From NCBI RefSeq assembly GCF_000718985.1, contig NZ_JODL01000013.1:62001-126000 (forward strand): DNA of 64,000 bases, given 5' to 3'. The notes below the pieces were generated by a model that ran no database searches, was not told the origin of the DNA, and saw nothing but the letters and a program-made list of their open reading frames with translations. Shown piece after piece: positions 39,703 to 59,653 of this stretch. The position numbers and the translations under genes are program-made. How positions within the stretch are numbered: position 1 is the first letter of the stretch; every line of letters starts with the position of its first letter. The DNA is from Streptomyces megasporus (GTDB lineage: Bacteria; Actinomycetota; Actinomycetes; Streptomycetales; Streptomycetaceae).

Positions 39703-39729
39703 TAACTCCCTAATCTGCTTAGGTGGTTA
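39703..39729. promoter_or_regulatory. Inverted repeat A, TAACT-N17-GGTTA
   Basis: Half-sites TAACT (39703-39707) and GGTTA (39725-39729), one mismatch, spaced by exactly 17 bases, directly upstream of the MFS start. The geometry is the same as in repeat B and in the three cluster sites. Proposed operator of the adjacent CGNR regulator. Confidence 0.55.
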
Positions 39730-39769
39730 GCGTAGTGCGGAGTTACCGTTGACGCAGGAGGGAGGCTGC

Positions 39770-39796
39770 TAACCCATTCGGTGGAATGGCTGGTTA
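39770..39796. promoter_or_regulatory. Inverted repeat B, TAACC-N17-GGTTA
   Basis: Perfect half-sites TAACC (39770-39774) and GGTTA (39792-39796) with 17 bases between, 34 bp before the CGNR start codon. Repeats A and B are 67 bp apart centre to centre and serve the two divergent genes. Confidence 0.6.
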
Positions 39797-39829
39797 TCAT
39801 CCGCCGACTGGCCGGAACGAGGAGGGTGC

Positions 39830-40402
39830 ATGACCGAACCACCTGCGGCGGTCGAGCTGATCATGGGCTTCACCAACACCGTCGACCTGGAGAGCGGACG
39901 GGACGAGTTGTCCACGCCCGCCGGACTCGCCCGCTGGCTGGTCGACGGAGGGCTCGTCGAGCGGTCACCCGACGTCACGGAAGCCGATCTCCGGGCCTGT
40001 CTGGAGCTGCGGGCCGGCATGCGCGAGGCCCTGGACGACGGCGGCGCGCCCGCGTCGCCGCACCGGCTGGCGCTCGCCGACGCCGTGCTGGCCCGGCTGC
40101 CGGTCATGGTCACGCTGACCGCGGCCACCGCGCCACCGGACGGCGGCCGGCCGGCCGCCGTCCTCGTTCCGTCCCCCGACCTCACCGGCGTTTCCGCGGC
40201 CGTGGCGCAGTTGGCCGTCGCCTGGGCCGAGTTGGTGCTGACCGGACGGATACGGCGGTTGAAGCGGTGCGCGGAGCGGCGGTGCGGCGAGGTGTTCTGG
40301 GACACCTCCCGCAACCACAGCCGCCGCTGGTGCTCCATGCAGGTGTGCGGCAACCGGACCAAGGTCCGGCGGCACACCGCCCGCCGGGCCGGAGCCGGAT
40401 GA
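39830..40402 (+). CDS. CGNR zinc-finger transcriptional regulator (first copy)
   Basis: 190 aa. N-terminal ABATE-type ligand domain (ELIMGFTNTVDLESGRDELSTPAGLARWL) and C-terminal CGNR domain, with RCAERRCGEVFWDTSRNHSRRWCSMQVCGNRTKVRRH (read here in parts: Cys pair in CAERRCG, then WCSMQVCGNR). The four Cys should hold one zinc, and the basic end should touch DNA. Few members are characterised. Its divergence from an MFS gene and the paired TAACC-N17-GGTTA repeats suggest a drug-responsive local regulator. A second CGNR gene lies at 59665. Confidence 0.88.
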   Translation: MTEPPAAVELIMGFTNTVDLESGRDELSTPAGLARWLVDGGLVERSPDVTEADLRACLELRAGMREALDDGGAPASPHRLALADAVLARLPVMVTLTAATAPPDGGRPAAVLVPSPDLTGVSAAVAQLAVAWAELVLTGRIRRLKRCAERRCGEVFWDTSRNHSRRWCSMQVCGNRTKVRRHTARRAGAG

Positions 40403-40557
40403 GCCCGCCGAGCCCGCCGTGACCGGCAGCGGACCGACCGCGAGCCCGGCCAGGCGACGGGCGTGGTGGTCCCGCGGCATCCCGTAGTGGTCGGCGGCCA
40501 GGACCGGCGCCGGGGTGTCGACGGGCTCCGCCTCCCGGCACCCGGCCATGGCTGGGT

Positions 40558-40585
40558 GGTGCCCTCGACGGGATTCGAACCCGCC
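40558..40585 (-). other. tRNA 3-prime remnant, likely attachment-site half
   Basis: On the minus strand the 28 bases from the T-arm (GCGGG-TTCGAAT-CCCGT) through CGAGGGC-A-CCA are exactly the 3-prime end of a tRNA including the discriminator and CCA. No 5-prime half that pairs with CGAGGGC is found at tRNA distance. The acceptor sequence would fit an Arg- or Lys-type tRNA. Such remnants mark att sites of integrated islands. It lies between the first CGNR gene and the start of the biosynthetic cluster. 40403-40849 shows no other supported gene. Confidence 0.6.
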
Positions 40586-40799
40586 CACACGGCTCCGGGG
40601 ACCGGGGCGACGCGCGGTTTTCCGCAGGTGAGCGCCGCATGTGACGGTACGTCAGGCGTGGCATCGAGGGAATGGCTCGGGATGGCGAAAGCCGGCCGGT
40701 CGCCGTCGGCGATGCCGGCCGGTCATGGTGGTGCGCGGCGGCGTACCTGTTCGCACTTCGATCAATAGGGCTAATCAACGGGTCCTGGGGCGGCGGCTG

Positions 40800-40826
40800 T
40801 TACCTCCGTATCGTTTTTGAAGGTAA
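40800..40826 (+). promoter_or_regulatory. Cluster operator C, TTACC-N17-GGTAA
   Basis: Perfect half-sites TTACC (40800-40804) and GGTAA (40822-40826), extendable to TTACCT/AGGTAA, 17 bases apart. They end 23 bp before the salicylate synthase ATG. TTACCT and GGTAAT also sit at -35/-10 spacing. Proposed binding site of the cluster CGNR regulator. Confidence 0.6.
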
Positions 40827-40838
40827 TCGATATGGAGG
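40803..40838 (+). repeat. Inverted repeat covering the salicylate synthase ribosome site
   Basis: CCTCCGTATCG (40803-40813) can pair with CGATATGGAGG (40828-40838) over 11 bp with one G.U pair. The right arm includes the GGAGG ribosome site. If transcription starts upstream of 40803, the hairpin would hide the site. Confidence 0.4.
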
Positions 40839-40849
40839 AGGACCTTCAG

Positions 40850-42196
40850 ATGAGCACCACTGCCTCGCGCCACTACTTCGAGACCCGGCTCCGGCTCACC
40901 GAGGACCCGCTGCTGCTCGCCGCCCGCCTCGCGGATTCCGGGCTGCACGAGTCGTACGTCGTTTACGAGAACGGCGGCAGTTGGTCCTACGCCGGCGGTG
41001 TGCGTGCCGAGCTGACGCTGGACCGCACGGGTGCCCGGCTGACCCAGGAGGGTGTCCCGGATGCCTTCCGGCCCTGGGGCGACCGGCCGCTGCGTCTGGT
41101 GTCCGAGCTGCTCGACACCGTCGCCGTGCCGTACTGGCGGGCCTACGGCTGGGCCGCCTTCGAGCTGTCGTACGCCAAGGACGGCGACCTGGAAGGCGTT
41201 GGCGACGGCCGGCTGATGCACCTCGTCGTGCCGCGCGCCGAGGTCCGCTTCGAGGCCGGGCACGCCCTGCTGCGCGCCGCGGACCAGGCCACCCTCGACG
41301 CTCTCCTCGACACCGTCACCAGCACCTCTCCCGTCGTCGGCGGGCAGCCCCGGCCGCTGGACGTGCACGCCACCGGCGGCACCCAGTACCGCGAGGCGGT
41401 GCGGCTCGCCGTCGACGAGATCAACGCCGGCGAACTGCACAAGGTGATCCTTTCCCGGGTCGTGGAGGTCGATGGCGACATCGACCTGACCAGCACCTAC
41501 GTCGCCGGCCGCCGCGGCAACAACCCGGCCCGCTCCTTCATGCTCAACCTGGGTGGCACCGAGGCCATCGGCTTCAGTCCGGAGATCGTCGTCCAGGTCT
41601 CCGAGGACGGCAAGGTCGTCAGCCAGCCGCTGGCCGGCACCCGCGCCCTCACCGGCGACCTGCTCACCGACGAGGGCCTGCGCGCGGACCTGTTCGGTTC
41701 TCCGAAGGAGGTCTACGAGCACGCCATCTCCGTCAAGGTCGGCGCCGACGAGCTGGTCGACGTCTGCGTCGAAGGCTCGGTCGAGGTCCCGGAGTTCATG
41801 GCGATCCGCGAGCGCGGCAGCGTCCAGCACCTCGCCTCCCGCGTCGCCGGACAGCTCGCCCCCGGCCGGGAGGCCTGGGAGGCCTTCGGCGCGGTCTTCC
41901 CCGCCGTCACCGCGTCCGGGGTGCCGAAGTCGGCCGCGTACGCCTCCATACGCCGGCACGAGCAGGAGTCTCGCGGCCTCTACAGCGGCGCGGTCCTCAC
42001 CGTCGACCACTCGGGCGCGATGGACGCGGCCCTGGTGCTGCGCAGCGCGTACCGCAAGGACGGGCGCACCTGGCTGCGGGCAGGCGCCGGCATCGTCGAA
42101 CACTCCACGCCCGAGCGCGAGTTCGAGGAGACCTGCGAGAAGCTCGACAGCGTCGCCCGGTACCTCGTCCCGGCCGGTGCGGGCGGTATGCGATGA
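40850..42196 (+). CDS. Salicylate synthase (MbtI/Irp9 type)
   Basis: 448 aa; GGAGGAGGA lies upstream of this ATG, while the earlier ATG at 40832 lies inside that site. Chorismate-binding fold with the family hallmarks QPLAGTRAL, SPKEVYEHAISVKVGADEL, RERGSVQHLASRV, FPAVTASGVPK, RGLYSGAV and WLRAGAGIVEHSTPEREFEETCEKL, nearly residue for residue as in MbtI. It converts chorismate through isochorismate to salicylate plus pyruvate. It heads the main operon of the cluster; the following genes overlap. The product should feed the aryl-AMP ligase at 43263. Confidence 0.93.
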   Translation: MSTTASRHYFETRLRLTEDPLLLAARLADSGLHESYVVYENGGSWSYAGGVRAELTLDRTGARLTQEGVPDAFRPWGDRPLRLVSELLDTVAVPYWRAYGWAAFELSYAKDGDLEGVGDGRLMHLVVPRAEVRFEAGHALLRAADQATLDALLDTVTSTSPVVGGQPRPLDVHATGGTQYREAVRLAVDEINAGELHKVILSRVVEVDGDIDLTSTYVAGRRGNNPARSFMLNLGGTEAIGFSPEIVVQVSEDGKVVSQPLAGTRALTGDLLTDEGLRADLFGSPKEVYEHAISVKVGADELVDVCVEGSVEVPEFMAIRERGSVQHLASRVAGQLAPGREAWEAFGAVFPAVTASGVPKSAAYASIRRHEQESRGLYSGAVLTVDHSGAMDAALVLRSAYRKDGRTWLRAGAGIVEHSTPEREFEETCEKLDSVARYLVPAGAGGMR

Positions 42197-43263
42197 GAGT
42201 GGCCACCGGACTCCACCTCGCCGGCATCGGTAGTTGGCTGCCCGGGGAGACGACCACCGCGGACGCCGTGGCCCACGGCTGGTACGAGGACGCCGACCGT
42301 ACCGCGTCCGGGATGCTCGCCGTACGGGTGGCCGGGGACCTCCCCGCCCCCGAGATGGCGGTACGGGCGGCGAGAACGGCCCTGCGCCGGGCGGGCCGCA
42401 CCGGACTCGCGCCCGACGACTACGGCGCGCTGCTGCACTGCGCGACCTACCACCAGGGGCCCGATGGCTGGTCCGCGCCGCACTACGTCCTGCACCGCAC
42501 CCTGGACCGCCCGATCGGAGCCGCCCAGGTGGGCCCCGGCTGCCTCGCCATGCTGACGGCCCTGGAGATGGCCGCCCACCGGCTCACCACCGACGACGGC
42601 CAGGACGCCGTCCTGCTCACCGCGGCCGACAACTTCTCCGCGCCCCTCGTGGACCGCTGGAATTCCTCCAAGCTGTTCCTCCTCGCCGACGGCGGCGCGG
42701 CCGTTGTGCTGTCGCGGCGGAACGGCTTCGCCCGGCTGCTGTCGGTCGGATCGGTCTCCGCCCCGTCGATGGAGGAACTGCACCGCGGCGGCGAGGAACT
42801 CTTCCCGCCCGGCGTCACCGTCGGCCGGTCGCTCGACTTCGAGGAGCGCAGCGACCACTGGCGCCGGCAGTGGGCCGAGGGAGCGGCGCCGCCGAAGGTC
42901 CACCTCGGCGACGTGGTCGCCGAGGCCGTCGACCGCGCCCTCGAGGAGGCGGACACGGACCTGGAGAAGGTGACGCGGATCTGCCACACCGGATACTCCG
43001 ACGGCGCCTTGCACACCATCTACCTCGATCCGCTGGACATCGAGGTCACCGACGGAACCTGGGAGTTCACCCGCCGCATCGGTCACGTCGGCGCCGCGGA
43101 CCCCTTCATCGGCCTCGAACACCTGTGGACGCGCGGCGAGGTCGTCCCCGGGGACCGTGTGCTGCTGCTCGCGGCGGGCCCCGGTATGGAGGTCGCCTGC
43201 GCGGTCGTGGAGATCACCGCGCCCTACTCGCCCCGCACCGCACGACAGGAGGAAGACCTGTGA
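42193..43263 (+). CDS. KAS III-like acyltransferase, catalytic Cys present
   Basis: 356 aa from the ATG overlapping the previous stop. Thiolase/KAS III fold with the nucleophile region AQVGPGCLAMLTALEMA (Cys117), a His in ICHTGYSDGALH, and the C-terminal GHVGAADPFIGLEHL where normal KAS III has an Asn. This pattern resembles KAS III-like enzymes that form C-O or C-N rather than C-C bonds. In A33853 biosynthesis a KAS III-like protein (BomK) is needed for benzoxazole formation. It likely transfers the salicyl group from the carrier protein to 3-hydroxyanthranilate. Confidence 0.82.
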   Translation: MRVATGLHLAGIGSWLPGETTTADAVAHGWYEDADRTASGMLAVRVAGDLPAPEMAVRAARTALRRAGRTGLAPDDYGALLHCATYHQGPDGWSAPHYVLHRTLDRPIGAAQVGPGCLAMLTALEMAAHRLTTDDGQDAVLLTAADNFSAPLVDRWNSSKLFLLADGGAAVVLSRRNGFARLLSVGSVSAPSMEELHRGGEELFPPGVTVGRSLDFEERSDHWRRQWAEGAAPPKVHLGDVVAEAVDRALEEADTDLEKVTRICHTGYSDGALHTIYLDPLDIEVTDGTWEFTRRIGHVGAADPFIGLEHLWTRGEVVPGDRVLLLAAGPGMEVACAVVEITAPYSPRTARQEEDL

Positions 43264-44993
43264 TGCTCGAAGGATGCACCCCCTGGCCGGCTGCGACGGC
43301 CGAGCGGTACCGCCGTGAGGGGCTGTGGAACGGCACGGACCTGGGGTCGCTGCCGCGCGCCTGGGCCGAGGCGTACGGCAATGCCACCGCGCTCGTCGCG
43401 GGCGACCGCCGGATCGGCTACACCGAACTGGCCGACCGCGTGGACCGCACGGCCGCCGGGTTCGTCCGCCGGGGAGTGGCGCCGGGGGACCGGATCGTCC
43501 TCCAGTTGCCCAACGTCCCCGCATTCGTGGAGGTGGCGTTCGCGCTGTTCCGGGTCGGCGCGAAGCCGGTTTTCTCACTCCCCTCGCACCGGGCGAACGA
43601 GATCCGGCATCTGTGTGAACTGTCCGGGGCCTCCGGTTACGTGGTCCCCGGCGTCTTCCGGGGCTTCGACCACACCGCGCTCGCCCTGGAAATGGCGGCC
43701 GAACTGCCCGCCCTGCGTCACGTCTACGCTCAGGGGGCGGCCGGCTCGCCCGAGGTGGTGCCGCTGGAGTCGGTCGACGCCGATCCCGCCGAGCTGCCCG
43801 TCAACGACCCCTCCGACGTGGCCTTCTTCCTGCTCTCCGGCGGGACGACCGCGCTGCCCAAGCTGATTCCGCGTACCCACGACGACTACGCCTACCAGAT
43901 TCGCACGGTCACCACCCTCGCCGGGCTGACCACCGACGACGTCTATCTGGCCGCACTGCCCGTGGAGTTCAACTTCACCTGGGGCTGCCCCGGAGTGATC
44001 GGCACGCTGTCGGCCGGCGGCACCGTCGTCCTCGCCCAGGACCCCACCGCCGACGACTGCTTCCGGCTGATCGAGCGCGAGCGCGTCACCCTGACCTCTG
44101 TGGTGCCCACCGTGGCCAGGCTCTGGCTGGAAGAGCGGGAGTGGTCCGACGCGGACCTGTCCAGCCTCAAGGTCCTCCAGATCGGCGGGGCCCGACTCGA
44201 ACCGGAGCTGGCCGCACGGGTCACGCCCGAGCTCGGCTGCCGGCTCCAGCAGGTGTTCGGCATGGCGGAGGGGCTTTTGACGATGTCCCGTCCCGACGAC
44301 GACGTCGAGTCCCTCCTGCACACCCAGGGGCGGCCGGTGTCGCCGGCCGACGAGGTGAAGATCGTCGACGAGCGCGGGGCGGAGGTGCCGACCGGAGTCA
44401 CCGGAGAGCTGCTCACCCGGGGCCCGTACACCCTGCGGGGCTACTACCGGGCTCCCGAGCACAATGCCAGAGCGTTCACCGAGGACGGCTTCTACCGCAC
44501 CGGTGACCTGGCCGCCCTCACTCCGGAGGGACGGCTGATCATCCGGGGACGGCTCAAGGACGTCATCATCCGCGGCGGGGACAAGGTAGCGGCGGGCGAG
44601 GTGGAGACCCACCTGCTGAGCTGCCCGGAAGTCGTAGCGGCGGCCGTGGTGCCGGTGCCGGACGAATTCCTCGGCGAACGGATCTACGCCTTCCTCGTCG
44701 CCCGGCCGGACCACGAGGACGCTCGGAGCGAGGGCGACGGCGAGGCCGGACCGCCGGCCCTGGCCGAACTCAAGGCCGCGCTGCACGCGCGCGGGCTCGC
44801 CGACTACAAGCTGCCGGACCGCGCCGAGTTCGTACCGGACCTGCCGCTGACACCCCTCGGAAAGATCGACAAGAAGGTGCTAGCGGCGGCTGCCGCGGAC
44901 CCCGCCCTGCCGCGCCGCTGGACGCCCGCCCCCACCGCGTCCGAGACCCCGGCCGTTCCTCTCCCCTCCGTCTCCCGCACACAGAAAGGGTGA
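43263..44993 (+). CDS. Aryl acid-AMP ligase (DhbE/EntE type), probably for salicylate
   Basis: 576 aa, coupled to the previous gene (TGATG) with AGGAGG upstream. ANL fold with FFLLSGGTTALPKLIPRTHDDY (A3), LPVEFNFTWGCPGVIGTL where the Asn replaces the amino-acid-binding Asp as in DhbE, FGMAEGLLT (A5), and the catalytic Lys in PLTPLGKIDKKVL (A10). It should activate salicylate as the adenylate and load it on the adjacent aryl carrier protein. A Pro/Ser/Thr tail of 30 residues ends the protein. Confidence 0.88.
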   Translation: MLEGCTPWPAATAERYRREGLWNGTDLGSLPRAWAEAYGNATALVAGDRRIGYTELADRVDRTAAGFVRRGVAPGDRIVLQLPNVPAFVEVAFALFRVGAKPVFSLPSHRANEIRHLCELSGASGYVVPGVFRGFDHTALALEMAAELPALRHVYAQGAAGSPEVVPLESVDADPAELPVNDPSDVAFFLLSGGTTALPKLIPRTHDDYAYQIRTVTTLAGLTTDDVYLAALPVEFNFTWGCPGVIGTLSAGGTVVLAQDPTADDCFRLIERERVTLTSVVPTVARLWLEEREWSDADLSSLKVLQIGGARLEPELAARVTPELGCRLQQVFGMAEGLLTMSRPDDDVESLLHTQGRPVSPADEVKIVDERGAEVPTGVTGELLTRGPYTLRGYYRAPEHNARAFTEDGFYRTGDLAALTPEGRLIIRGRLKDVIIRGGDKVAAGEVETHLLSCPEVVAAAVVPVPDEFLGERIYAFLVARPDHEDARSEGDGEAGPPALAELKAALHARGLADYKLPDRAEFVPDLPLTPLGKIDKKVLAAAAADPALPRRWTPAPTASETPAVPLPSVSRTQKG

Positions 44994-44999
44994 ACCGCC

Positions 45000-46834: not shown

Positions 46835-47601
46835 ACGCGAAGACGGCCCTGGTCACCGGGGCGGCAGGCGGAATCGGGGCGGCGGTTGCCCGTGCCCTGG
46901 CCGCGGACGGCGCGCGGGTCGCGCTGCTCGACGCCGATCCGGCCGCCCTGGAACCGCTGGCGAAGGAACTCCGGACAGCCGGCGCAGCGGTCCTGGAGTT
47001 GGGCGCGGACGTGCGTTCCAGCGACGAGGTGGGCGCCGCGGTCGACCGCACGGAACGCGAACTCGGACCGCTCGACTTCCTGGTGAACGCCGCGGGCGTG
47101 CTGCGCACCGGTGAGGTCGCGAGCTTCAGCGACGAGGACTGGGACACCACCTTCGCGGTCAACGCGACCGGCGTCTTCCACGTCAGCCGGGCCGTCGCCA
47201 ACCTCATGGTGCCGCGCCGGTCCGGGGCGATCGTCACGGTCGCCTCGAACGCCGCGTGCGTTCCGCGCTGGAGCATGGCGGCCTACGCCGCGTCGAAGGC
47301 CGCGGCCACCAGTTTCACCAAGACGCTGGGGCTCGAACTGGCCCGGTTCGGCATCCGCTGCAACGTGGTCGCCCCCGGCTCCACCGAGACGCCGATGCTC
47401 GCCTCGATGCACGCGGACGGCGACGCGGTCGGCCCCTCCGTGGAGGGCTCGCCCGGTACGTACCGCGTGGGCATTCCACTCGGCAGGATCGCCCGGCCCG
47501 AGGACATCGCGCACGCTGTGCTCTTCCTGCTCTCCGACCGGGCCGCGCACATCACCCTGCACAGCCTGACAGTGGACGGCGGTGCCGCGCTCGGCGTCTG
47601 A
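46831..47601 (+). CDS. SDR dehydrogenase, EntA/DhbA-like
   Basis: 256 aa from the ATG overlapping the previous stop. It has NAD motif TGAAGGIGAAVARALAADG, NAAG at about 90, catalytic Ser in VTVASNAACVPRWSM and YAASK (Tyr and Lys). It is closest in pattern to 2,3-dihydro-2,3-dihydroxybenzoate dehydrogenases. No catechol-type isochorismate route is otherwise present, but PhzE- and PhzD-like genes follow. It should therefore oxidise trans-2,3-dihydro-3-hydroxyanthranilate to 3-hydroxyanthranilate, as proposed for benzoxazole and related pathways. Confidence 0.85.
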   Translation: MNAKTALVTGAAGGIGAAVARALAADGARVALLDADPAALEPLAKELRTAGAAVLELGADVRSSDEVGAAVDRTERELGPLDFLVNAAGVLRTGEVASFSDEDWDTTFAVNATGVFHVSRAVANLMVPRRSGAIVTVASNAACVPRWSMAAYAASKAAATSFTKTLGLELARFGIRCNVVAPGSTETPMLASMHADGDAVGPSVEGSPGTYRVGIPLGRIARPEDIAHAVLFLLSDRAAHITLHSLTVDGGAALGV

Positions 47602-47642
47602 GCCACGCCTTTCCCCTTCCTTCCATCCCTCTTGGAGCCACG

Positions 47643-48305
47643 ATGACGATCCCTCTGATCGACCCCTATCCCATGCCGACCGAGGACGATTTGCCGCGCA
47701 ACACCGCGCACTGGGTGGTCGACCCCGATCGCGCCGTCCTGCTCGTCCACGACTTGCAGAACTACTTCCTCAGCCCCTTCGGGTACGGCGGCCCGGACGA
47801 GGGCCGTCAACCGCTGACCGACCTGATGGACCACACCGCGGCGCTCCGCGGGGCGTTCGCGGAGGCCGGGGCGCCGGTCGTCTACACCGCCCAGCCCGGC
47901 GGCATGTCGGACGAACAGCGCGGACTGCTCAAGGACTTCTGGGGCGCCGGAATGAGCGCGGACCCGGACCACCGCGCCATCCCCGAGCGGATCGCGCCCG
48001 CCCCCGACGACCAGGTGTTCACCAAGTGGCGGCCCAGCGCCTTCTGCCGTACCGATCTGCTCGCCCTGCTGCGCCGCACCGGCCGCGACCAGTTGGTGAT
48101 CTGCGGCGTCTATGCCCACGTCGGCATCCTGATGACCGCTCACGAGGGTTTCTCCCACGACATCCAGACCTTCGTGGTGGGCGACGCGATCGCCGACTTC
48201 TCCGCCGACCGCCACCGCGAGACGCTGGAGTACGTCGCCTCCCGCTGCTCGGTCACCGTCTCCACCCGCGCGGTCCTGGCCGCGCTGGACGGAAGTGCGC
48301 GATGA
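47643..48305 (+). CDS. PhzD-like isochorismatase-family hydrolase
   Basis: 220 aa. Asp37 in VLLVHDLQNYFLSPF and Lys128 in TKWRPSAF are the catalytic acid pair. The usual nucleophilic Cys is replaced by Gly161 in GVYAHVGILMTA, exactly as in PhzD and isochorismatases, which hydrolyse a vinyl ether and need no thiol. With PhzE upstream in the pathway it should convert 2-amino-2-deoxyisochorismate to 2,3-dihydro-3-hydroxyanthranilate plus pyruvate. It overlaps the PhzE-like gene (ATGA). Confidence 0.9.
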   Translation: MTIPLIDPYPMPTEDDLPRNTAHWVVDPDRAVLLVHDLQNYFLSPFGYGGPDEGRQPLTDLMDHTAALRGAFAEAGAPVVYTAQPGGMSDEQRGLLKDFWGAGMSADPDHRAIPERIAPAPDDQVFTKWRPSAFCRTDLLALLRRTGRDQLVICGVYAHVGILMTAHEGFSHDIQTFVVGDAIADFSADRHRETLEYVASRCSVTVSTRAVLAALDGSAR

Positions 48306-50263
48306 GTCCCCATCCGCTGCTCGCCCGGGTGCTCGGAGCCGATCCGCCACCGTTCGCCCTGCTGCACCGGCCCGGAGCCACCGGACCCGACCTGATCGAC
48401 CTGATCGTCGGCCGGACCGCCGAGCGGGAGCTGATCGCCGACATCCCGCTGCGCGCCGAGGAACCGGACGGCACGGCTCCGGGAACCGCCGCCAGGCACG
48501 AGGTCCTCGCGCTGCTGCCCTACCGGCAGATCCGCGAGCGTGGCTACGCCTGTCCCGACGACGGGGCGCCACTGCTGACGATGACCGTCGACGATCAGGC
48601 CGTCCTGCCGCTCGACGAGGTGCTTCAGGCGCTGCCCGACGTCCCGATCAACATGGCGGAGGGGGCCTTCGACGCCGACGACGACGAGTACGCGGCCCGG
48701 GTGCGGCGGGTGCTCACCGAGGAGATCGGCCGGGGAGCCGGGGCCAACTTCGTCATCAAGCGGTCCTTCACCGCGCGGATCGCCGACTGGTCGGCGCACA
48801 CCGCGCTGTCGTTCTTCCGACGTCTGGCCGGCCGCGACCCCGGCGGCTACTGGACGTTCGTCGTCCACACCGGGAACCGCACCTTCGTGGGAGCCTCCCC
48901 GGAGCGCCACATCAGTCTGGACGCGGGCCGGGTCGTGATGAACCCGATCAGCGGGACGTACCGCTATCCGGCGGACGGTCCCGACCTGGCCGGTGTGCTC
49001 GACTTCCTCGCCGACCCCAAGGAGGCCAACGAGCTCTACATGGTGCTCGACGAGGAGCTCAAGATGATGGGCCGGATCTGCGACCTGGGTGGACGGGTCA
49101 TCGGTCCCGCCCTCAAGCAGATGGCCAGACTCGCCCACACCGAGTACCTCATCGAGGGCCACAGTTCCCTGGACGTACGGGACATCCTCCGGGAGACCCT
49201 GTTCGCACCCACCGTCACCGGCGGCCCGCTGGAGAGCGCCTGCGAGGTGATCGGCCGTCACGAGCCGGAAGGCCGTGGCCACTACGCCGGTGTCGCCGCG
49301 CTGATCGGCCGGGACGAGCACGGCGCCCGCACCATGGACTCGGCCATCCTCATCCGTACGGCCGAGATCGATCCGGCCGGGCAGGTGCGAATCCAGGTGG
49401 GCGCGACCCTGGTACGCGACTCCGACCCGGCGGGCGAGGCCGCGGAGACCCGGGCCAAGGCGGCCGGACTCATCGAGACGCTGCGCTCCCCGACGGGCGA
49501 CCCAGCGGGCCCCGGTCCGGTGGCCGGCCTCGCGACGCATCCCGACGTGCTACGGGCGCTGGCCGCACGCAACGAGCCGCTGGCCGACTTCTGGTTCCTG
49601 CCGCCCGCGGACCGCGGCCGCCCGGTGCCCGCTCTCGCCGGTCGGCGGGTGCTGGTGATCGACGCCGAGGACACCTTCACCGCGATGGCCCGCCACCTCC
49701 TGGAGGCCCAGGGGCTGCGGATCGTGGTGAAGCGCCACGACGAGGAGTTCCGGCTCGACGCGCACGACCTCGTCATCGTCGGGCCGGGGCCGGGGGACCC
49801 GAGGGACACGGACGACCCCAAGATCGCCCGGATGCGACAGGTGACCACCGAACTCCTGGACCGGGGCATCCCGTTCCTCTCCGTCTGCCTGGGGCACCAG
49901 GTGCTGAGCAGCCTGCTCGGGCTCCCGCTCGTACGGCACCCCACGCCCGCCCAGGGGCTCCAGCGCCACATCGACTGCTTCGGCCGCGACGAACCGGTCG
50001 GCTTCTACAACACCTTCGCCGCCCACGCCGCACGGGACCTGATCGACTGTCCGGCCCGCCCGGGGCGGGTCCGGGTGTTCCGTGAGGAGACGGGCGAGGT
50101 ACACGCCCTGCGCGGTCCGGGGTTCGCCTCGGTGCAGTTCCACCCCGCATCGGTGCTGACCCGGCGCGGCGGCGAGCTGCTCGCCGAACTCCTCTCCGGG
50201 GTGCTCGGAGAGGTAACGGAGCTTTATCGGGAGGCCGTTGCCCCCGCCACGCTACCTGCATAA
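48302..50263 (+). CDS. PhzE-like 2-amino-2-deoxyisochorismate synthase
   Basis: 653 aa. An N-terminal anthranilate-synthase I domain (about 1-400; MNPISGTYRYP, DEELKMMGRICDLGG, SCEVIGRHEPEGRGHYAGVAAL) is fused to a glutamine amidotransferase (about 440-640). The order and length are those of PhzE. The amidotransferase has Cys529 in SVCLGHQVLSSLLG and His614 in VQFHPASVLT. The position that is Glu in most class I amidotransferases (HPE) is Ala616 here. It converts chorismate and glutamine to ADIC. The last bases overlap operator D. Confidence 0.9.
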   Translation: MSPHPLLARVLGADPPPFALLHRPGATGPDLIDLIVGRTAERELIADIPLRAEEPDGTAPGTAARHEVLALLPYRQIRERGYACPDDGAPLLTMTVDDQAVLPLDEVLQALPDVPINMAEGAFDADDDEYAARVRRVLTEEIGRGAGANFVIKRSFTARIADWSAHTALSFFRRLAGRDPGGYWTFVVHTGNRTFVGASPERHISLDAGRVVMNPISGTYRYPADGPDLAGVLDFLADPKEANELYMVLDEELKMMGRICDLGGRVIGPALKQMARLAHTEYLIEGHSSLDVRDILRETLFAPTVTGGPLESACEVIGRHEPEGRGHYAGVAALIGRDEHGARTMDSAILIRTAEIDPAGQVRIQVGATLVRDSDPAGEAAETRAKAAGLIETLRSPTGDPAGPGPVAGLATHPDVLRALAARNEPLADFWFLPPADRGRPVPALAGRRVLVIDAEDTFTAMARHLLEAQGLRIVVKRHDEEFRLDAHDLVIVGPGPGDPRDTDDPKIARMRQVTTELLDRGIPFLSVCLGHQVLSSLLGLPLVRHPTPAQGLQRHIDCFGRDEPVGFYNTFAAHAARDLIDCPARPGRVRVFREETGEVHALRGPGFASVQFHPASVLTRRGGELLAELLSGVLGEVTELYREAVAPATLPA

Positions 50264-50278
50264 CGTCATAGCCGGTAA
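50252..50278 (+). promoter_or_regulatory. Cluster operator D, CTACC-N17-GGTAA
   Basis: TACC (50253-50256) and GGTA (50274-50277) are separated by exactly 17 bases, as in operator C. 8 of the 15 central bases also match operator C when the two are aligned. It overlaps the end of the PhzE gene and lies 74 bp before the second KAS III start. A single AGGTAACGG half-site copy lies at 50211-50219. Confidence 0.55.
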
Positions 50279-50351
50279 CGGAGGTTCGGGCCGCACCCGT
50301 CGGCCGCCTCCACCGCGCCCACCGGCGTCCACCCGGGAAAGGACCTGCCCG

Positions 50352-51374
50352 ATGCGCTTCGACAACATCTGGATCGCCGGTACCGGAGGCACCCTGGGTG
50401 AATCCGTGCCGGTGGAGGAGGCCGTGGCCGACGGCTCCTACTCGGCCGACGCCGCCGCCGGCACCGGCATGATCAGCTACTCCCGCTCGGCCGAGGCACC
50501 GCCGGAGATGGCGGTCACAGCGGGACGGCAGGCGATCAAGGAAGCCGGCGCGAAGGACGCGCGGATCGATCCGGACTCTCTCCTCCTGCACAGCCACGGC
50601 CACTTCCAGGGCATCGACCTGTGGCCCGCGGCCTGCTGGATCGCCCGCGAACTGCTCGGACCCGTCCTCAACAGCATGCCGATGACGGTCGCCGCCTGGT
50701 CCAACGGCTCGCTCGCCTCGCTCGACGTCGCCGCCTCGACCCTCATCGCCCGACCCGACGTGCCTTCCGCCCTGATCACCCTCGCGGACCGCTTCGCGCC
50801 GCCGAGCAACCGTTGGTACACCTCGCCCGGCATGGTCTTCGGCGACGGGGCCGCCGCCGCGGTGGTCACCCGCGACGCCGGCAGGCTCCGCCTGCGCTCC
50901 CTGGTCAGCGAGACCGACACCGTCCTGGAAGGTCTGTCCCGCGGTGCCGAGCCCTTCCGCGCCGCGCCCGTCGAGCAGCCGGACATGCGCCGCAGGACCC
51001 GCGAGTTCCTCGCCACCGGCGAGGTGTCACTGCGCGACGTGCAGAACAGGTCGGTGGAGCGCACCCGTAGCGTCGTCGGCCGCGCTCTCGACGAGGCGGA
51101 CGTGGCACCGGACGGCGTCGACTGGCTGGTGACCCCCTTCGTCGGCCGGACCCTGCACCGCGAGAGCTTCGTGCGCCACCTCGACATCACACCACGCAAC
51201 TCCCTGCACGAACTCGGGCTGACCATCGGCCACCTCGGCCCGTGCGACCAGTTGTACGGCCTCGACCACCTGCTGAGGAACGACCTGCTGAGCCCCGGGG
51301 ACCGGATTCTCGTGATCGGCACCGGCATGGGCTTCACCTTCTCCGCCGCGGTCCTCACCGCCGACGGGATCTGA
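50352..51374 (+). CDS. KAS III-like protein with Ser in place of the catalytic Cys
   Basis: 340 aa; AAGGA precedes the ATG. The fold is that of KAS III and it aligns through MTVAAWSNGSLASLDVAAS, where the nucleophile is Ser120, not Cys. The His region reads TPFVGRTLHRESF and the C-terminal motif is GHLGPCDQLYGLDHL. It is a distant paralogue of the 42193 gene. It may use Ser as nucleophile, act as a non-covalent transferase, or be a silent partner subunit. It begins a second transcription unit with the DAHP synthase and NRPS genes. Confidence 0.78.
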   Translation: MRFDNIWIAGTGGTLGESVPVEEAVADGSYSADAAAGTGMISYSRSAEAPPEMAVTAGRQAIKEAGAKDARIDPDSLLLHSHGHFQGIDLWPAACWIARELLGPVLNSMPMTVAAWSNGSLASLDVAASTLIARPDVPSALITLADRFAPPSNRWYTSPGMVFGDGAAAAVVTRDAGRLRLRSLVSETDTVLEGLSRGAEPFRAAPVEQPDMRRRTREFLATGEVSLRDVQNRSVERTRSVVGRALDEADVAPDGVDWLVTPFVGRTLHRESFVRHLDITPRNSLHELGLTIGHLGPCDQLYGLDHLLRNDLLSPGDRILVIGTGMGFTFSAAVLTADGI

Positions 51375-51447
51375 CCTCACACCGCCCCGCCCTTCCCCCG
51401 TACCCCGCCTCCGCATCCGCCTCCGCATCATGAAGGGACATACGCAG

Positions 51448-52557
51448 ATGAGCCTCGTCCGCATCCCGGCCACCGCCCCCGCCGACACGTTCTCCGGCGC
51501 CCCGGCCGCCGTCCGGCTGCCCACCCCCGCCGAGCTCCGCGAGGAGATCCCGCTTCCGCCCCTCGCCCGCAAGACCACCCGGAAAGCCCGCATCGAACTC
51601 GCCCGGGTGCTCGCCGGCCAGGACGACCGACTGGTCGTCATCGCGGGCCCGTGCTCCGTCCACGACCCGGACGCCGCCCTCACCTACGCCGAGCGGCTCT
51701 CCGCGCTCGCCGCCGAGCTCCAGGACCGTCTCCTGGTCGTCATGCGGGTGTACGTCGAGAAACCCCGCACCCGGGTCGGCTGGAAGGGACTGCTCAGCGA
51801 CCCCCGGCTCGACGGCTCGCAGGACCTGCCCAGCGGCCTGAGGCTGGCCCGTGGACTGATGGCCCAGATCGCGGGCACCGGCCTGCCGGTCGCCTGCGAG
51901 CTTCTCGACCCGCTCGTCCCGCACTATCTCGCCGACGCCGTCTCCTGGGGGTGCATCGGCGCCCGTACCGTACAGAGCCAGGTGCACCGCCAGGTCACCA
52001 GCGGCCTCGACATGCCGATCGGCTTCAAGAACGCCACCGACGGCAGCGTCGAGGACGCGGTCGACGCCATCGTCTCCGCCTCGCACCCGCACGTGTACCC
52101 CGGCATCGGCGACGACGGCAGGGCCACCGTGGTCAGCACCGAGGGAAACCCCGGCGGCCATGTGGTGCTGCGCGGCGGCAGCAACGGCCCCAACTACCAG
52201 GCCGGGTCGGTCTCCGCGGTCCTGACGCAACTGGCCGCCGCCGGGCTGCCGCAGCGGCTGATCGTCGACGCCAGCCACGGCAACAGCAACAAGGACCACG
52301 AGCGCCAACCCCTGGTGATCGGCGACATCGCCCGACGTATCGCCGCCGGTGAGCAGGGTGTCGTCGGTGTCATGATCGAGAGCTTCCTGGCCGCGGGCCG
52401 GCAGGACCTCAAGACCGGCCGTCCCGACCCGCTCACCTACGGACAGAGCGTCACCGACGCCTGCGTGGGCTGGGCGCAGACCGTCCGAATGCTCGAGGAC
52501 CTCGCCTCCGCGGTCGCCGCCCGCCGCGCGGCGCTCACCCCGGCGCCCCGGAACTGA
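51448..52557 (+). CDS. Type I (AroG-like) DAHP synthase
   Basis: 369 aa; the ATG at 51448 is preferred because GAAGGGA precedes it, while the in-frame ATG at 51430 has no ribosome site. It has IAGPCSVHDPDAAL, MRVYVEKPRTRVGWKGL, IGFKNATDGS and DASHGNSNKDHERQ, the class I alpha pattern. Primary metabolism in Streptomyces uses the unrelated type II enzyme, so this copy probably raises shikimate flux for the cluster, as PhzC does in phenazine pathways. It is likely less sensitive to aromatic amino-acid feedback (inference). Confidence 0.9.
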   Translation: MSLVRIPATAPADTFSGAPAAVRLPTPAELREEIPLPPLARKTTRKARIELARVLAGQDDRLVVIAGPCSVHDPDAALTYAERLSALAAELQDRLLVVMRVYVEKPRTRVGWKGLLSDPRLDGSQDLPSGLRLARGLMAQIAGTGLPVACELLDPLVPHYLADAVSWGCIGARTVQSQVHRQVTSGLDMPIGFKNATDGSVEDAVDAIVSASHPHVYPGIGDDGRATVVSTEGNPGGHVVLRGGSNGPNYQAGSVSAVLTQLAAAGLPQRLIVDASHGNSNKDHERQPLVIGDIARRIAAGEQGVVGVMIESFLAAGRQDLKTGRPDPLTYGQSVTDACVGWAQTVRMLEDLASAVAARRAALTPAPRN

Positions 52558-55065: not shown

Positions 55066-55101
55066 ACCGGCCGATCTCCCCGCCCGTCGCGGTGGCGCGT
55101 C

Positions 55102-55145
55102 CGCGGCAGTGGCTCCCGCGCCGTGACGTGGGGGCCGCTGCCGCG
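55102..55145. terminator. Terminator between NRPS and VOC genes
   Basis: CGCGGCAGTGGC (55102-55113) pairs with GCCGCTGCCGCG (55134-55145), with one G.U pair, between convergent genes. Confidence 0.6.
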
Positions 55146-55201
55146 CGGTCGCTGTCGGGCCGGGTCACGGGCACGGCGCGGGCGCCGAGGTCAGCGGGGG
55201 G

Positions 55202-55609: not shown

Positions 55610-55698
55610 GGGTGGTTCCTCTCGTCGTTCTGTAACTGTGACCATCCTCCGACCCAAAGGGCTCACCCACTGAGCACTTTACAAGAGAGGCTGGGAGC

Positions 55699-56649
55699 AT
55701 GCGCGCTGACCGACTCGTCGCCGCCCTCCTGTTCATGCAACGGCGAGGCCGGGTGACCGCCGCCGAGCTGGCAGGCGAACTGGAGGTGTCCGTGGCCACC
55801 GCCCGCCGCGACCTGGAGGCGATGTCCGCCGCCGGCATCCCGGTGTACCCGCAGCCCGGCCGCGGCGGCGGCTGGTCGCTCGTCGGTGGTGCCCGGACCG
55901 ACCTCAGCGGTCTGTCGGCCAACGAGGCACAGGCGCTGTTCCTGCTCGTCGGCCCGGCCGCGGCGGTCTCGGGCGACGCCAAGGCGGCGCTGCGCAAGCT
56001 GGTGCGGGCGCTGCCGCAGACCTTCCGGGCGGACGCCCAGGCCGCCGCCGACGCCACCATGGTCGACCCCACCCCGTGGGGCGAACGCGACCGCCGCAGG
56101 CCGGAGACGGTCGATGTGCTGCAGGCCGCCGTTGTCCGCCGGCGCAGGGTCCGGCTCACCTACACCAACAGTGCCCGGACGCGGACCGAGCGGACCGTCG
56201 ATCCCTGGGGCCTGGTCGACAAGGACGACACCTGGTACCTGATCGCCGGCACCGAGCGGGGGCGGCGGACCTTCCGGATCGACCGGATCGACGCCGCCGA
56301 ACAGACCGGTGAACCCGCGGAGCGGCCCGACGACTTCGTGCTCGCCACGGCCTGGCGGGAGGTGGTCGGCGATGTGGAGGAGCGGCGCTCGCGCACCTGG
56401 GCGACCGTCCTCGTCGAGGCGAGGTTCGTGCCCGTCCTCCGCGACAGGTTCGGACGGCACTGCCACCCCGACGGCGAGCACGAGGACGGACGGGCCCGCA
56501 TGCGCCTCGCCGCGCCGACCCCGCTGGACGTCGCCCGGAACCTGGCCGGCTGGGGTGCCCTGGTCGAGGTTCTCGAACCCGTCTCCGTGCAAGCCGAGCT
56601 GGCGCGGATAGGGACCGAACTCGCCGACCGCTACGCGGGCGCGCGCTGA
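55699..56649 (+). CDS. HTH and WYL-domain regulator (YafY type)
   Basis: 316 aa. N-terminal winged HTH (MRADRLVAALLFMQRRGRVTAAELAGELEVSVATARRDLEAM), then a WYL domain with VRLTYTNSARTRTERTVDPWGLVDKDDTWYLIAG and RTFRIDRI, and a C-terminal WCX extension. Such proteins bind nucleic acid and sense a ligand through WYL. It is divergent from the VOC gene across 89 bp, so it most likely controls that gene. It is followed by a hairpin shared with the monooxygenase gene. Confidence 0.87.
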   Translation: MRADRLVAALLFMQRRGRVTAAELAGELEVSVATARRDLEAMSAAGIPVYPQPGRGGGWSLVGGARTDLSGLSANEAQALFLLVGPAAAVSGDAKAALRKLVRALPQTFRADAQAAADATMVDPTPWGERDRRRPETVDVLQAAVVRRRRVRLTYTNSARTRTERTVDPWGLVDKDDTWYLIAGTERGRRTFRIDRIDAAEQTGEPAERPDDFVLATAWREVVGDVEERRSRTWATVLVEARFVPVLRDRFGRHCHPDGEHEDGRARMRLAAPTPLDVARNLAGWGALVEVLEPVSVQAELARIGTELADRYAGAR

Positions 56650-56654
56650 CGCGA

Positions 56655-56690
56655 ACGGCCGCCGCCCCCGGATCGGGAGGCGGCGGCCGT
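56655..56690. terminator. Bidirectional terminator after the WYL regulator
   Basis: ACGGCCGCCGCC (56655-56666) and GGCGGCGGCCGT (56679-56690) pair over 12 bp, with an inner CCCG/CGGG extension, between convergent genes. Confidence 0.8.
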
Positions 56691-56723
56691 CGGCTCGCGG
56701 GACGCGCGGGTTCGAGCCGGTGG

Positions 56724-58043
56724 TCACCGGGGTGCGGCCCGGGTGATTCCCGCCTCGCGGTCCGCGGCGAACCGCCCGCGTCCCCGGACGGTCTGCTCAC
56801 CGTCCGCGGCAGGCGTCCCGCGGGCCATGGCGGAGGACCGGCGGCGGTTGTCGGCGAGCGCCTCACCGTCCTCGGTGAACGACGTGGAGCCGTGCAGCCA
56901 CGCGACGGCGTCGCGCAGATCGTCGGGGGAGAGGTCCGCCAGCATCGCATTGCGCACCGGCGCGTCGGCCCCGGCCGCGTGGTAGAGCCGTGTGCCCATC
57001 TCGCGCGCGGTGAGGGTCGTCCGGGCGGTGCGGTCCCGCCGCAGGGCGTTGTACCTGGCAAGGCGTCCCGGGATCTCCCACGGCTCGCAGCGCAGCAGCC
57101 CGCCGAGCACCACTGCGTCCTCCAGGGCCATGCAGGCGCCCTGCGCCGCGTACTGGAGCATCGGGTGCGCGGCGTCCCCGAGCAGCGCCACCCGGCCGTC
57201 CACCCAGCCGTCGACCGGATCGCGGTCGCAGAGCACCCAGATCCGCCAGTCTCGGCCGAGCTCCAGCAGCCGCCGGGCCTCGTCGCACAGCCCGGGGAAC
57301 TCGCCCAGGACGCGGGAACGGCTCGCGGCCGCTCCGGTGATCTCCTCACGGGCCCCGTCGTCGCGGGTGGCCGCGAGATTGAGGAACGCGCCGCCGCCGA
57401 TCGGGTAGTGCACGAAGTGCCAGCCCGGGCCGGCCCACAGGGTGACGGACTTCGACCGCAGCTCCCGGGGAACCTCCTCCATCGGGATCACGGAGCGGTA
57501 GATCGTGTGGCCCGAGATGCGCGGGCCGCCGTCGCCGACGAGCCGGGCCCGAACCGCGGAGCGCAGCCCGTCGGCGCCCAGGAGCACATCCGCCCCGAAC
57601 CGCCGTCCGTCGACGGTGAGCGCCGTCACCCGGTCGCCGCGCTGTTGGTAGCCCGTCACCCGGTGCCCGGCCAGGAGTCGCACGCCGGCGTCGCGGCAGC
57701 CGTCGAGCAGCGCCCGATGCAGATCCCCGCGGTGGACCACGGCGTAAGGACCGCCGAACCTGCTCCGGTACGTGCCGGTCAGTTCCATCGCGGCGACCCG
57801 CTGCCCCGATGTGCCGTCCAGGAAGCGCAGCTCGTCGATGAAGTCGGCCCGCTCGGCGACCCGGTCGCGCACCCCCAGCACGCCGAGCGCGTGGAAGGCG
57901 TTGGGCGCCAGTTGGATTCCCGCGCCGATCTCCGAGAACTCCGGCCGACCTTCCAGGACGGTCACCCGGTGCCCGGCGCGGGCCTGCCCCAGAGCGGCGG
58001 CGAGCCCGCCGATACCGCCGCCCGCGACGAGTATGTGTGTCAT
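56724..58043 (-). CDS. FAD-dependent aromatic monooxygenase, salicylate-hydroxylase-like
   Basis: 439 aa; AGGAG lies 7 bases before the ATG at 58043 (a GTG at 58046 is also in frame). Single-component group A flavin hydroxylase: LVAGGGIGGLAAALGQARAG (FAD), VLLGADGLRSAVR (DG motif) and ALLGDAAHPMLQYAAQGACMALEDA (GD motif). The closest pattern is salicylate 1-hydroxylase and 3- or 6-hydroxylases of hydroxybenzoates. In a cluster that makes salicylate it could hydroxylate the final product, divert salicylate to catechol or gentisate, or detoxify excess. Which of these is right cannot be told from sequence. Confidence 0.85.
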   Translation of the reverse strand: MTHILVAGGGIGGLAAALGQARAGHRVTVLEGRPEFSEIGAGIQLAPNAFHALGVLGVRDRVAERADFIDELRFLDGTSGQRVAAMELTGTYRSRFGGPYAVVHRGDLHRALLDGCRDAGVRLLAGHRVTGYQQRGDRVTALTVDGRRFGADVLLGADGLRSAVRARLVGDGGPRISGHTIYRSVIPMEEVPRELRSKSVTLWAGPGWHFVHYPIGGGAFLNLAATRDDGAREEITGAAASRSRVLGEFPGLCDEARRLLELGRDWRIWVLCDRDPVDGWVDGRVALLGDAAHPMLQYAAQGACMALEDAVVLGGLLRCEPWEIPGRLARYNALRRDRTARTTLTAREMGTRLYHAAGADAPVRNAMLADLSPDDLRDAVAWLHGSTSFTEDGEALADNRRRSSAMARGTPAADGEQTVRGRGRFAADREAGITRAAPR

Positions 58044-58114
58044 CACCTGCTCCTCTCGTGATGCGGCGGGCGGCCCCGCTCTCCGGGGCCGGCCGCCGGA
58101 AGCGACGGTGGGCC

Positions 58115-59590
58115 CTACTCGGCCGCGGCCGACGCGCCCGCGGCGGCGACCGCCGTCCTCTTCCCGTCACCGGCGGCGGTGGCGGGGGCCGAGGGCCCGG
58201 CCGAGGCCACGGCGGTGTGCCGCAGACCGAAGAGCGCGACCGCGACGATGGCCCCGGAGAGGACCGTCGTGAACCAGAACGCGTCCTGGAACCCGCTGAC
58301 CGGAATGGCCGCGCCGGTGCCGTGCACGACACCGGCGAGGGCCACACCGACGGCGAGGCAGAGCCCGACGCCCAACTGGCGGCTGGAGTTGAACAGACCG
58401 GAGGCCAGACCCATCTGCGGCCCGCTGACGCCGCTGGTGCCGGCGATGGCGGTGGAGATCATCATGACCGTCACGCCAAGGCCGACCAGCACACCGCCGG
58501 GCAGCACGCCGAGTACGTAGGAGCTGTCCGCCGTCACCTGGGCGAGGAGACCCGAGCCGACGGCCAGGAGCAGCCCGCCGGTGATCAGCACGGTGCGGGC
58601 GCCGAACCTGTGGGTGAGCTTGACGACCGGCAGGCTGGCCAGGAAGACCACGAAGGCCTGCGGGAAGAAACCCATGCTCGTCTTGAGAGTGGAGTACCCG
58701 AGCACCTGCTGCATGTACATGGTGATGAAGAAGGTCGACACCGACATCACGCCGCCCGACAGGAACGCGATCCCGTTGCCCGACGAAAGGGCGCGGTTAC
58801 GGAAGATCGACAGCGGCACGAGCGGTCCGGAGACCCGGGCCTGCACGACCAGGAAGGCGATCAGCAGCGCGGCGCCGCCACCCAGCGAGACGAGCACGGG
58901 CGTCGAGCCCCAGCCGCGATCGGAGGCCATGGTCAGACCGTAGGTGAGGACGCACATGGCCGAGGTGACCAGGATCGCGCCGGGCAGGTCCAGGCGGGAG
59001 GAGCGGGTGCTCCGGTGGTCGGCGGTCAACCGGCGGGCGGCCAGTGCCACGAGCAGGACACCGACCGGGACGTTGACCAGCATGACGGCGCGCCAGGTGA
59101 GGAATTCGGTGAGCAGACCGCCCGCCACGACACCGCCGGTGAAACCGGCCGAGGAGACGGCGCCGAAGACGCCCATCGCCTTCACGCGTTCGGGCCCCTC
59201 GGGGAACCCGCCGGCGATCAACGCGAGGACCGCCGGGGAGACGGCCGCCGCGGAGAGGCCCTGGACGCCGCGGGCGAGGATGAGGAGCCACGGCTCGGTG
59301 GCGATACCGCCGACGAGCGAGGCGATGGTGAAGACGGCGAGACCGGCCACGAACATGCGCTTGCGCCCGAAGACGTCACCGGCACGACCGCCCAGCAGCA
59401 GGAAGCCGCCGTAGAAGAGGGCGTAGGCGCCGACGACCCACTGCAGTCCACTGGAGGTGAAGCCGAGGTCGCGCTGCATGGCGCCCAGAGCGACGTTCAC
59501 GATGGCGAAGTCGAGGACGAGTATGAACTGTGCGGCGCACAGAAGGAGGAGCGGTGGTCGAGCGGTGGTCGTGCCGTTGGTGCTGGTCAT
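58115..59590 (-). CDS. MFS drug exporter, DHA2 (14-TM) family
   Basis: 491 aa. Fourteen membrane segments are visible, with LDFAIVNVALGAMQRDLGF in TM1, GGRAGDVFGRKRMFVAGL in loop 2-3 and the antiporter-type motif AVSSAGFTGGVVAGGLLTEFLTWRAVMLVNVPVG in TM5. An Ala-rich tail follows. This is the EmrB/QacA type common as self-resistance pump in antibiotic clusters. It is divergent from the second CGNR regulator, with operator E between, so the cluster product is probably both inducer and substrate. Confidence 0.9.
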   Translation of the reverse strand: MTSTNGTTTARPPLLLLCAAQFILVLDFAIVNVALGAMQRDLGFTSSGLQWVVGAYALFYGGFLLLGGRAGDVFGRKRMFVAGLAVFTIASLVGGIATEPWLLILARGVQGLSAAAVSPAVLALIAGGFPEGPERVKAMGVFGAVSSAGFTGGVVAGGLLTEFLTWRAVMLVNVPVGVLLVALAARRLTADHRSTRSSRLDLPGAILVTSAMCVLTYGLTMASDRGWGSTPVLVSLGGGAALLIAFLVVQARVSGPLVPLSIFRNRALSSGNGIAFLSGGVMSVSTFFITMYMQQVLGYSTLKTSMGFFPQAFVVFLASLPVVKLTHRFGARTVLITGGLLLAVGSGLLAQVTADSSYVLGVLPGGVLVGLGVTVMMISTAIAGTSGVSGPQMGLASGLFNSSRQLGVGLCLAVGVALAGVVHGTGAAIPVSGFQDAFWFTTVLSGAIVAVALFGLRHTAVASAGPSAPATAAGDGKRTAVAAAGASAAAE

Positions 59591-59628
59591 GACATTCCTT
59601 TCACGGGAGGAGAAACAAGAGCGGGGGA

Positions 59629-59653
59629 TACCGGTGAAGGCGATTGGCCGGTA
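59629..59653. promoter_or_regulatory. Cluster operator E, TACC-N17-GGTA
   Basis: TACC (59629-59632) and GGTA (59650-59653), extended to ATACCG/CGGTAG-like arms, again 17 bases apart, in the 74-bp gap between the exporter and the second CGNR gene and 12 bp before the CGNR ATG. It would allow autoregulation together with exporter control. Confidence 0.55.

Follow-up and report, generated by a model that had tools for sequence, protein, structure and literature searches.

We propose that five inverted repeats in a 64,000-nucleotide stretch of Streptomyces megasporus DNA (the window, meaning the whole stretch analysed) are the operators of the two ABATE/CGNR regulators encoded there, CGNR1 and CGNR2, and that these proteins probably repress the neighbouring exporter and pathway operons. 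We put the probability of this reading at roughly 0.8. S1 and S2 lie between CGNR1 and the divergent exporter gene MFS1, S3 and S4 lie ahead of a salicylate synthase-like gene and of the second KAS III-like gene (KAS2), and S5 lies between CGNR2 and its own divergent exporter gene, MFS2 (Table 1). Both regulators have an N-terminal ABATE domain (PF07336) and a C-terminal zf-CGNR treble clef (PF11706) with four cysteines, both over the Pfam cut-off, and the fold of the window's ABATE/CGNR regulators is like that of 3h0n in a comparison that re-ranks Foldseek's own matches.

Five repeats with a shared spacing

The earlier note on this DNA had described five inverted repeats, and all five are present, each within one base of the place claimed for it and each with 17 bases between its arms. 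For TACC-N17-GGTA, of which it expected fewer than one by chance in a window of this size, three were observed against a shuffle mean of 0.06, and none of 100 shuffles reached three. The window contains two TAACY-N17-GGTTA sites, which the scan lists as three rows as one site matches both strands, and the shuffle mean for this pattern is 0.00. When the spacer between TACC and GGTA was varied from 0 to 60 across the window, three matches fell at 17 and at most one at every other length.

The suggestion that the repeats mark a cluster-wide regulon gains support from orthologous clusters, where the sites are conserved even if gene order has changed. A scan with KAS2 gave 18 loci, 16 of which carry further genes of the window cluster. 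A CGNR2 orthologue (61–85% identity) is present in 18 clusters, counting the window and the comparison genome G025, in three of them outside the first stretch, and TACC-N17-GGTA stands beside it in all 18. S3 is kept in nine of nine, and S4 in ten of ten, Streptomyces clusters that cover its place. All eight core arm columns are invariant in each of the alignments of S3 (nine rows), S4 (nine rows) and S5 (seven rows), 24 in all; identity averages 0.85, 0.80 and 0.78 in the respective spacers and 0.63–0.82 in the flanks. In Herbidospora, with its altered gene order, MFS2 and KAS2 have a second N17 site between them in six of six loci, and in locus L115 it is found just ahead of an FAD monooxygenase-like gene running into KAS2. 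S. novaecaesareae and S. inhibens have only a 52% identical KAS III, with no site within the stretch scanned, and their genomes hold no close relative of CGNR2 (best identity 35–37%).

The CGNR1–MFS1 pair shows a conservation of its own. A relative of CGNR1 is present in each of 199 Streptomyces genomes searched, and an MFS1-like gene (55–75% identity) lies on the same side in all 20 other CGNR1-clade loci examined. With up to one mismatch allowed, in a scan run without a shuffled control, 20 of the 21 loci of this clade (window included) have at least one site, and 16 have two, one by each gene and often 65–69 bp apart. S1 itself extends to a longer palindrome, TAACTCCCTAA-5-TTAGGTGGTTA, and CGNR1-clade loci have similar sites at its place.

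The earlier note had further pointed out that the spacing equals that of −35/−10 boxes, which would suit promoter occlusion or activation. A reading of the arms as such boxes finds no support: the arms are symmetric and the half-sites extend inwards, and no promoter boxes in place of the arms were seen by eye in the S3, S4 and S5 alignments, a promoter scan not having been run. Two further elements lie close to these sites. A second conserved inverted element of CGATCA..TGATCG type (window 40759–40777), about 23 bases upstream of S3, occurs in salicylate synthase promoters and is perhaps a promoter or the site of another regulator. Near S4, at window 50212–50242 and close to the 3′ end of the PhzE-like gene, GGTAACGG-N15-CCGTTGCC is partly invariant across the cluster alignment, and could represent extra half-sites or coding constraint.

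Recurrence beside other CGNR genes

The check set beforehand was a scan of other CGNR loci, and a spacing-conserved repeat does recur in them, in Actinomycetota, Pseudomonadota, Deinococcota and Bacillota. Loci were drawn from Streptomyces, from the phylum and from relatives of the cluster; orientation was corrected, duplicates and rows with identical tails were merged, and four rows (L026, L027, L031 and L032) were left out as too short. With no motif preset, TACC-N17-GGTA came top of all 4-mer inverted repeats with spacers of 3 to 40 in 88 distinct Streptomyces CGNR loci, giving 28 matches in 26 loci against an average of 1.39 per spacer, and TWAC-N17-21-GTWA was found in 47 of the 88. In 127 Actinomycetota loci, a sample in which relatives of the two window regulators are over-represented, TWACY-Nk-RGTWA was sought in the 360 bases around the start. 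At k = 16, 17 and 18 the numbers of loci that carry it there are 9, 40 and 30; upstream it occurs in none at k = 14, 15 or 19, and for k from 5 to 35 it is absent from 125 downstream regions and from the genes themselves. Altogether 58 of the 127 loci carry an N16–18 site, compared with a shuffle mean of 0.17 and a maximum of 2 in 60 shuffles; TACC-N17-GGTA is the only site in 13 (12 of them of the CGNR2 group), a pair of arms with an N9 spacer occurs in five, and 51 have none of these.

That the spacer is an invariant 17, as first claimed, is true of the five window sites and of their cluster orthologues; as a rule for the family it was rejected, the spacer ranging from 16 to 19 by subfamily. 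Another CGNR clade has the same half-sites about 9 apart in five of its eight rows; in its loci L083, L084, L089, L160 and L163 the arms are of TAAC(C) type, and in several rows they enclose a TATA-like box.

Outside Actinomycetota we examined 17 loci, taken from 17 of 25 plasmid records, and found a site with a spacer of 18 or 19 in 13 of them, several of which are close relatives. The positive loci belong to one Sinorhizobium, Shinella, one Rhizobium, Macrococcoides, three Deinococcus and six Burkholderiaceae, some of these six being near copies; the site is absent from the loci of Rhizobium daejeonense, Mesorhizobium, Sinorhizobium sp. RAC02 and Burkholderia arboris in this set. Among the 12 loci that were parsed automatically, eight have a site where 0.12 would be expected (200 shuffles). 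In the Sinorhizobium locus L174 the CGNR gene lies near moaD/moaE, and an expression table for Bordetella lists a CGNR gene with modA/modB as locus-tag neighbours in the part of PMC9976334 consulted.

The 5.85-Mb genome contains 12 matches to TACC-N17-GGTA, three in the cluster and one before a third CGNR gene, and a reversed control gives 13, so four-base arms alone are not rare. TWACC-N17-GGTWA has three matches, namely S2, S3 and the site before the third CGNR gene on contig C19, against one for its reversed control; this third gene has two adjacent sites, with spacers of 17 and 18. Across 21 Streptomyces genomes, GTTACC-N{5-30}-GGTAAC occurs 40 times (29 for the reversed control pattern). 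Fifteen of these matches are N17, and for 11 of them a CGNR gene lies no more than 1.2 kb away; eight are N18, six of them equally close; the other 24 spacers together give 17 matches, with three near CGNR genes, all N10. In three of the genomes (L167 at 2877, L168 at 2842 and L169 at 2910) a GTTACC-N17-GGTAAC site with similar inner letters lies away from the CGNR genes found. Genes of OsmC, MarR and ABC type are near the L167 site and an ABC-type gene is near that of L168, and a Pfam search of the neighbours of two distant sites returned mixed genes.

It is hardly credible, in the light of these counts, that the repeats are chance occurrences or RNA hairpins devoid of a regulatory role. The arms are only four to six bases long, the genome-wide count of the shortest form does not exceed its control, and several clusters have N18 and N16 matches within genes that look like coding sequence (five clusters have an N18 match within the adenylation gene, and L113 has an N16 match; neither is counted here). 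Against this, the shuffled levels for the window and for the 127-locus set oppose chance for the set as a whole, the spacing is fixed and the arms are invariant while the spacer letters vary, and the downstream regions and genes of the 127 loci are free of matches. As for hairpins, no Rfam family scored over its cut-off at window 36000–62000.

Half-sites and a candidate specificity residue

The alignment of individual half-sites suggests that more than the outer arms is read. Of 52 TAACC half-sites, 51 have T or C at position 7 and 38 have A at position 9, giving the pattern TAACC-NN-Y-N-A, and 115 of 124 TTACC half-sites are preceded by G. Because the half-sites extend inwards, each would span about 11 bp, or about one helical turn, and the nominal spacer would be partly read. 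Consecutive candidate operators are 30 bp apart in 15 of 30 pairs.

The earlier note had assigned TAACC-type sites to one CGNR copy and TACC-type sites to the other. A division with TAACC for the first copy and TTACC/TACC for the second is borne out by their relatives, with one exceptional lineage. In 71 of 74 labelled loci the second base of the half-site agrees with a CGNR-motif residue, two mixed loci being left out of this count. All 27 TAACC loci, five of them N9 loci, have a CGNR motif, and 44 of the 47 TTACC/TACC loci have CG[STA]R together with Met, the three exceptions being related loci. Deinococcus QL22, on a distant branch, combines CGSR and Met with TTACC sites, in line with the link. 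A broader proposition, to which we give even odds, is that ABATE/CGNR proteins are bacteria-wide, ligand-released zinc-finger repressors sharing one operator grammar of two inverted TWACC half-sites 16–19 bases apart. In this grammar the second base would depend on the third motif residue: Asn would specify TAACC, and Ser, Thr or Ala, accompanied by a Met three positions past the motif, would specify TTACC.

These observations bear on whether the sites belong to the CGNR proteins in the first place. It might be argued that another DNA-binding protein, of TetR or MarR type for example, owns them and happens to control both the CGNR genes and the genes around these. The arms are short, a few of the distant sites have other genes close by (of OsmC and MarR type in one genome), and the window also holds a WYL regulator gene. 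We regard this as improbable. The presence of a CGNR gene was what selected the loci, which come from four phyla and differ in their other neighbours where annotation was seen, and the second half-site base follows the CGNR-motif residue, Deinococcus included, with only two independent pairs on starred branches behind that correlation.

Predicted control of the exporters and the pathway

If the repeats are CGNR operators, a CGNR dimer would bind two inverted half-sites of about 11 bp (TWACC plus an inner element) with a footprint of 27 bp, and the palindromic form of the sites is consistent with a dimer. CGNR1 would act through the TAACC sites S1 and S2 on its own gene and on MFS1. CGNR2 would act through the TTACC/TACC sites S3, S4 and S5 on its own gene, on MFS2 with the FAD monooxygenase gene, and on the operons of salicylate synthase and of KAS2/DAHP synthase. 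Binding could repress these genes by blocking the promoter or leader, and the ABATE domain may lift repression on sensing a pathway product or an exporter substrate. The sequences show the sites, how far they exceed chance, their recurrence ahead of CGNR genes and their conservation; from these we infer binding by the CGNR proteins, the matching of site to protein, the extents of the operons, repression and ligand release. Repression is the simplest mode to envisage because S1, S5 and S3 lie 4–38 bases from start codons.

It is also conceivable, but in our view unlikely, that CGNR2 binds these sites and activates the cluster instead. Production of caboxamycin from a related cluster is lost without the SARP gene cbxR (PMC5481532, in the part consulted), and S4 lies 73 bases ahead of its gene. 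The distances of S1, S5 and S3 from start codons (4, 11 and 23 bases) suit steric repression, and divergent pairs of regulator and exporter genes are common among ligand-released repressors.

Several results weigh against the operator reading as a whole. Even when the TACC-N17-GGTA loci are counted as positive, 56 of the 127 loci are without an N16–18 site, five of these having the N9 pair. Several CGNR clades lack the site, and a well-supported one of 21 rows has it in none of them. A later sample picked by zinc-finger score yielded 28 new loci and 19 usable rows, of which only five have a site (all N18, TAACC with CGNR), and one of its 19 downstream regions matched at k = 18. Other spacers are also populated upstream, with 12 loci at k = 23 and eight at k = 10; in multi-site promoters half-sites also pair across neighbouring sites, as N10 matches nested inside N17 sites in the Streptomyces genomes show. 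Six of the 23 GTTACC-N17/18-GGTAAC sites are more than 1.2 kb from any CGNR gene found. Within the cluster relatives, no site stands directly before the salicylate synthase gene in any of eight Herbidospora and Nonomuraea loci, and in two Nonomuraea loci the site beside CGNR2 is the only one in the stretches examined. The link between residue and base is founded on few independent changes and is not significant (one independent pair in a first test; in a second, from which five non-actinobacterial rows with an unparsed motif were left out, two on starred branches, both in line, and four on all branches), and the direction of control is deduced from position alone.

Table 1. Candidate operators and genes of the window (window coordinates)
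Feature	Positions	Strand	Remarks
S1, candidate operator, TAACT-N17-GGTTA	39703–39729	none	4 bases from MFS1 start codon
S2, candidate operator, TAACC-N17-GGTTA	39770–39796	none	33 bases ahead of CGNR1 start
S3, candidate operator, TTACC-N17-GGTAA	40800–40826	none	23 bases ahead of salicylate synthase start
S4, candidate operator, CTACC-N17-GGTAA	50252–50278	none	73 bases ahead of KAS2
S5, candidate operator, TACC-N17-GGTA	59629–59653	none	11 bases to CGNR2 ATG (59665), 38 to MFS2 start
MFS1, exporter gene divergent from CGNR1	38394–39698	−	Pfam MFS_1 2e-31
CGNR1, ABATE + zf-CGNR regulator, CGNR motif	39830–40402	+	Pfam zf-CGNR 8.8e-19, ABATE 2.8e-12
Salicylate synthase-like gene (chorismate-binding enzyme)	40850–42196	+	Pfam Chorismate_bind 2e-72 on longer open reading frame 40817–42196
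PhzE/anthranilate synthase-like open reading frame (chorismate-binding + GATase)	47582–50263 (extent of reading frame)	+	Pfam; 3′ end overlaps S4
KAS2, second KAS III-like gene	50352–51374	+	Pfam ACP_syn_III_C 8.8e-12 on longer open reading frame 50238–51374
DAHP synthase gene, after KAS2	51430–52557		Pfam DAHP_synth_1 2e-77
WYL regulator gene	55699–56649		found in Pfam scan
FAD monooxygenase-like gene, downstream of MFS2	56724–58046	−	Pfam FAD_binding_3 5.9e-19
MFS2, exporter gene divergent from CGNR2	58115–59590	−	Pfam MFS_1 1.2e-46
CGNR2, ABATE + zf-CGNR regulator, CGTR..KM motif variant	59665–60255	+	Pfam ABATE 6.3e-14, zf-CGNR 5.6e-17

The two regulator genes appear to belong to different units. 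Membership of CGNR1 and MFS1 in the conserved cluster was rejected, as the alignment with G025, the genome to which this comparison was limited, starts at 40749; the best match of CGNR1 in G025 is that genome's CGNR2. Since the pair does not adjoin the cluster in G025, it probably forms a separate module. Between CGNR1 and the salicylate synthase cluster, near the start of this synteny, a 23-base stretch (40559–40581, minus strand) has what we take to be the look of a tRNA 3′ end; a tRNA gene search found no tRNA gene there, a single further copy with 2 mismatches occurs in the genome, and the stretch may be an integration scar. Outside the region of the sites are a SpoIIE/GAF/PAS phosphatase-like gene (27600–29726), a VWA-domain gene (35070–36332) and a multicopper oxidase gene (14676–16442).

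Genes for salicylate synthase, KAS III, AMP ligase and amidohydrolase and genes of anthranilate synthase type stand together in the window, a caboxamycin-type set when Pfam assignments are compared with the consulted part of the description of the cbx cluster of Streptomyces sp. NTK 937 (PMC5481532), and the window genes resemble a benzoxazole pathway. The first KAS III gene, outside the Pfam scan, was placed by alignment with KAS2. Beyond the genes comparable with cbx, the window cluster carries another KAS III-like gene, KAS2, together with a CGNR gene and an exporter gene divergent from it; the words CGNR, exporter and MFS are absent from the text of the cbx paper, which places EmrB/QacA transporters outside the cbx borders (PMC5481532). 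Control may also differ, a SARP activator being described for cbx in the same paper and CGNR control being the candidate for the window cluster. Judged by its genes, which include extra ones, the cluster would encode a salicylate/benzoxazole-type pathway, a benzoxazole being one possible product. Synthesis of 3-hydroxyanthranilate is presumably the task of the isochorismatase, SDR and DAHP synthase genes.

In TetR-type exporter/repressor pairs the regulator is divergent from an MFS exporter, palindromic sites occupy the shared intergenic region, and autoregulation is probable. The CGNR modules would share all three features, but their DNA-binding part is a treble-clef zinc finger and not a helix-turn-helix, and the paired sites of the CGNR1 clade likewise set them apart.

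For the ABATE/CGNR family itself (DUF1470), the structure 3h0n of Jann_2411 is described as probably dimeric, with a predicted DNA-binding finger and a domain that may take a ligand (PMC2954205, in the part consulted). The same part of that report names no DNA site, and the word operator is absent from the report's text; a concrete operator and regulon are proposed here. The open-licence literature searched, including the consulted parts of PMC4260502, PMC3485107 and PMC9976334, describes no operator for the family, and it yielded no paper on GTTACC operators.

A family whose crystal structure was published in 2009, and which has members in other phyla, has thus had no DNA target described in that literature. 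With a concrete operator proposed, its targets listed and a residue named that may set specificity, the family's function becomes testable by gel shift. The sites point to a switch of a salicylate/benzoxazole-type pathway and its exporter, which would be useful for activating silent clusters. If the single operator grammar is true, genome scans could match every CGNR protein with its targets and with its exporter or pathway.

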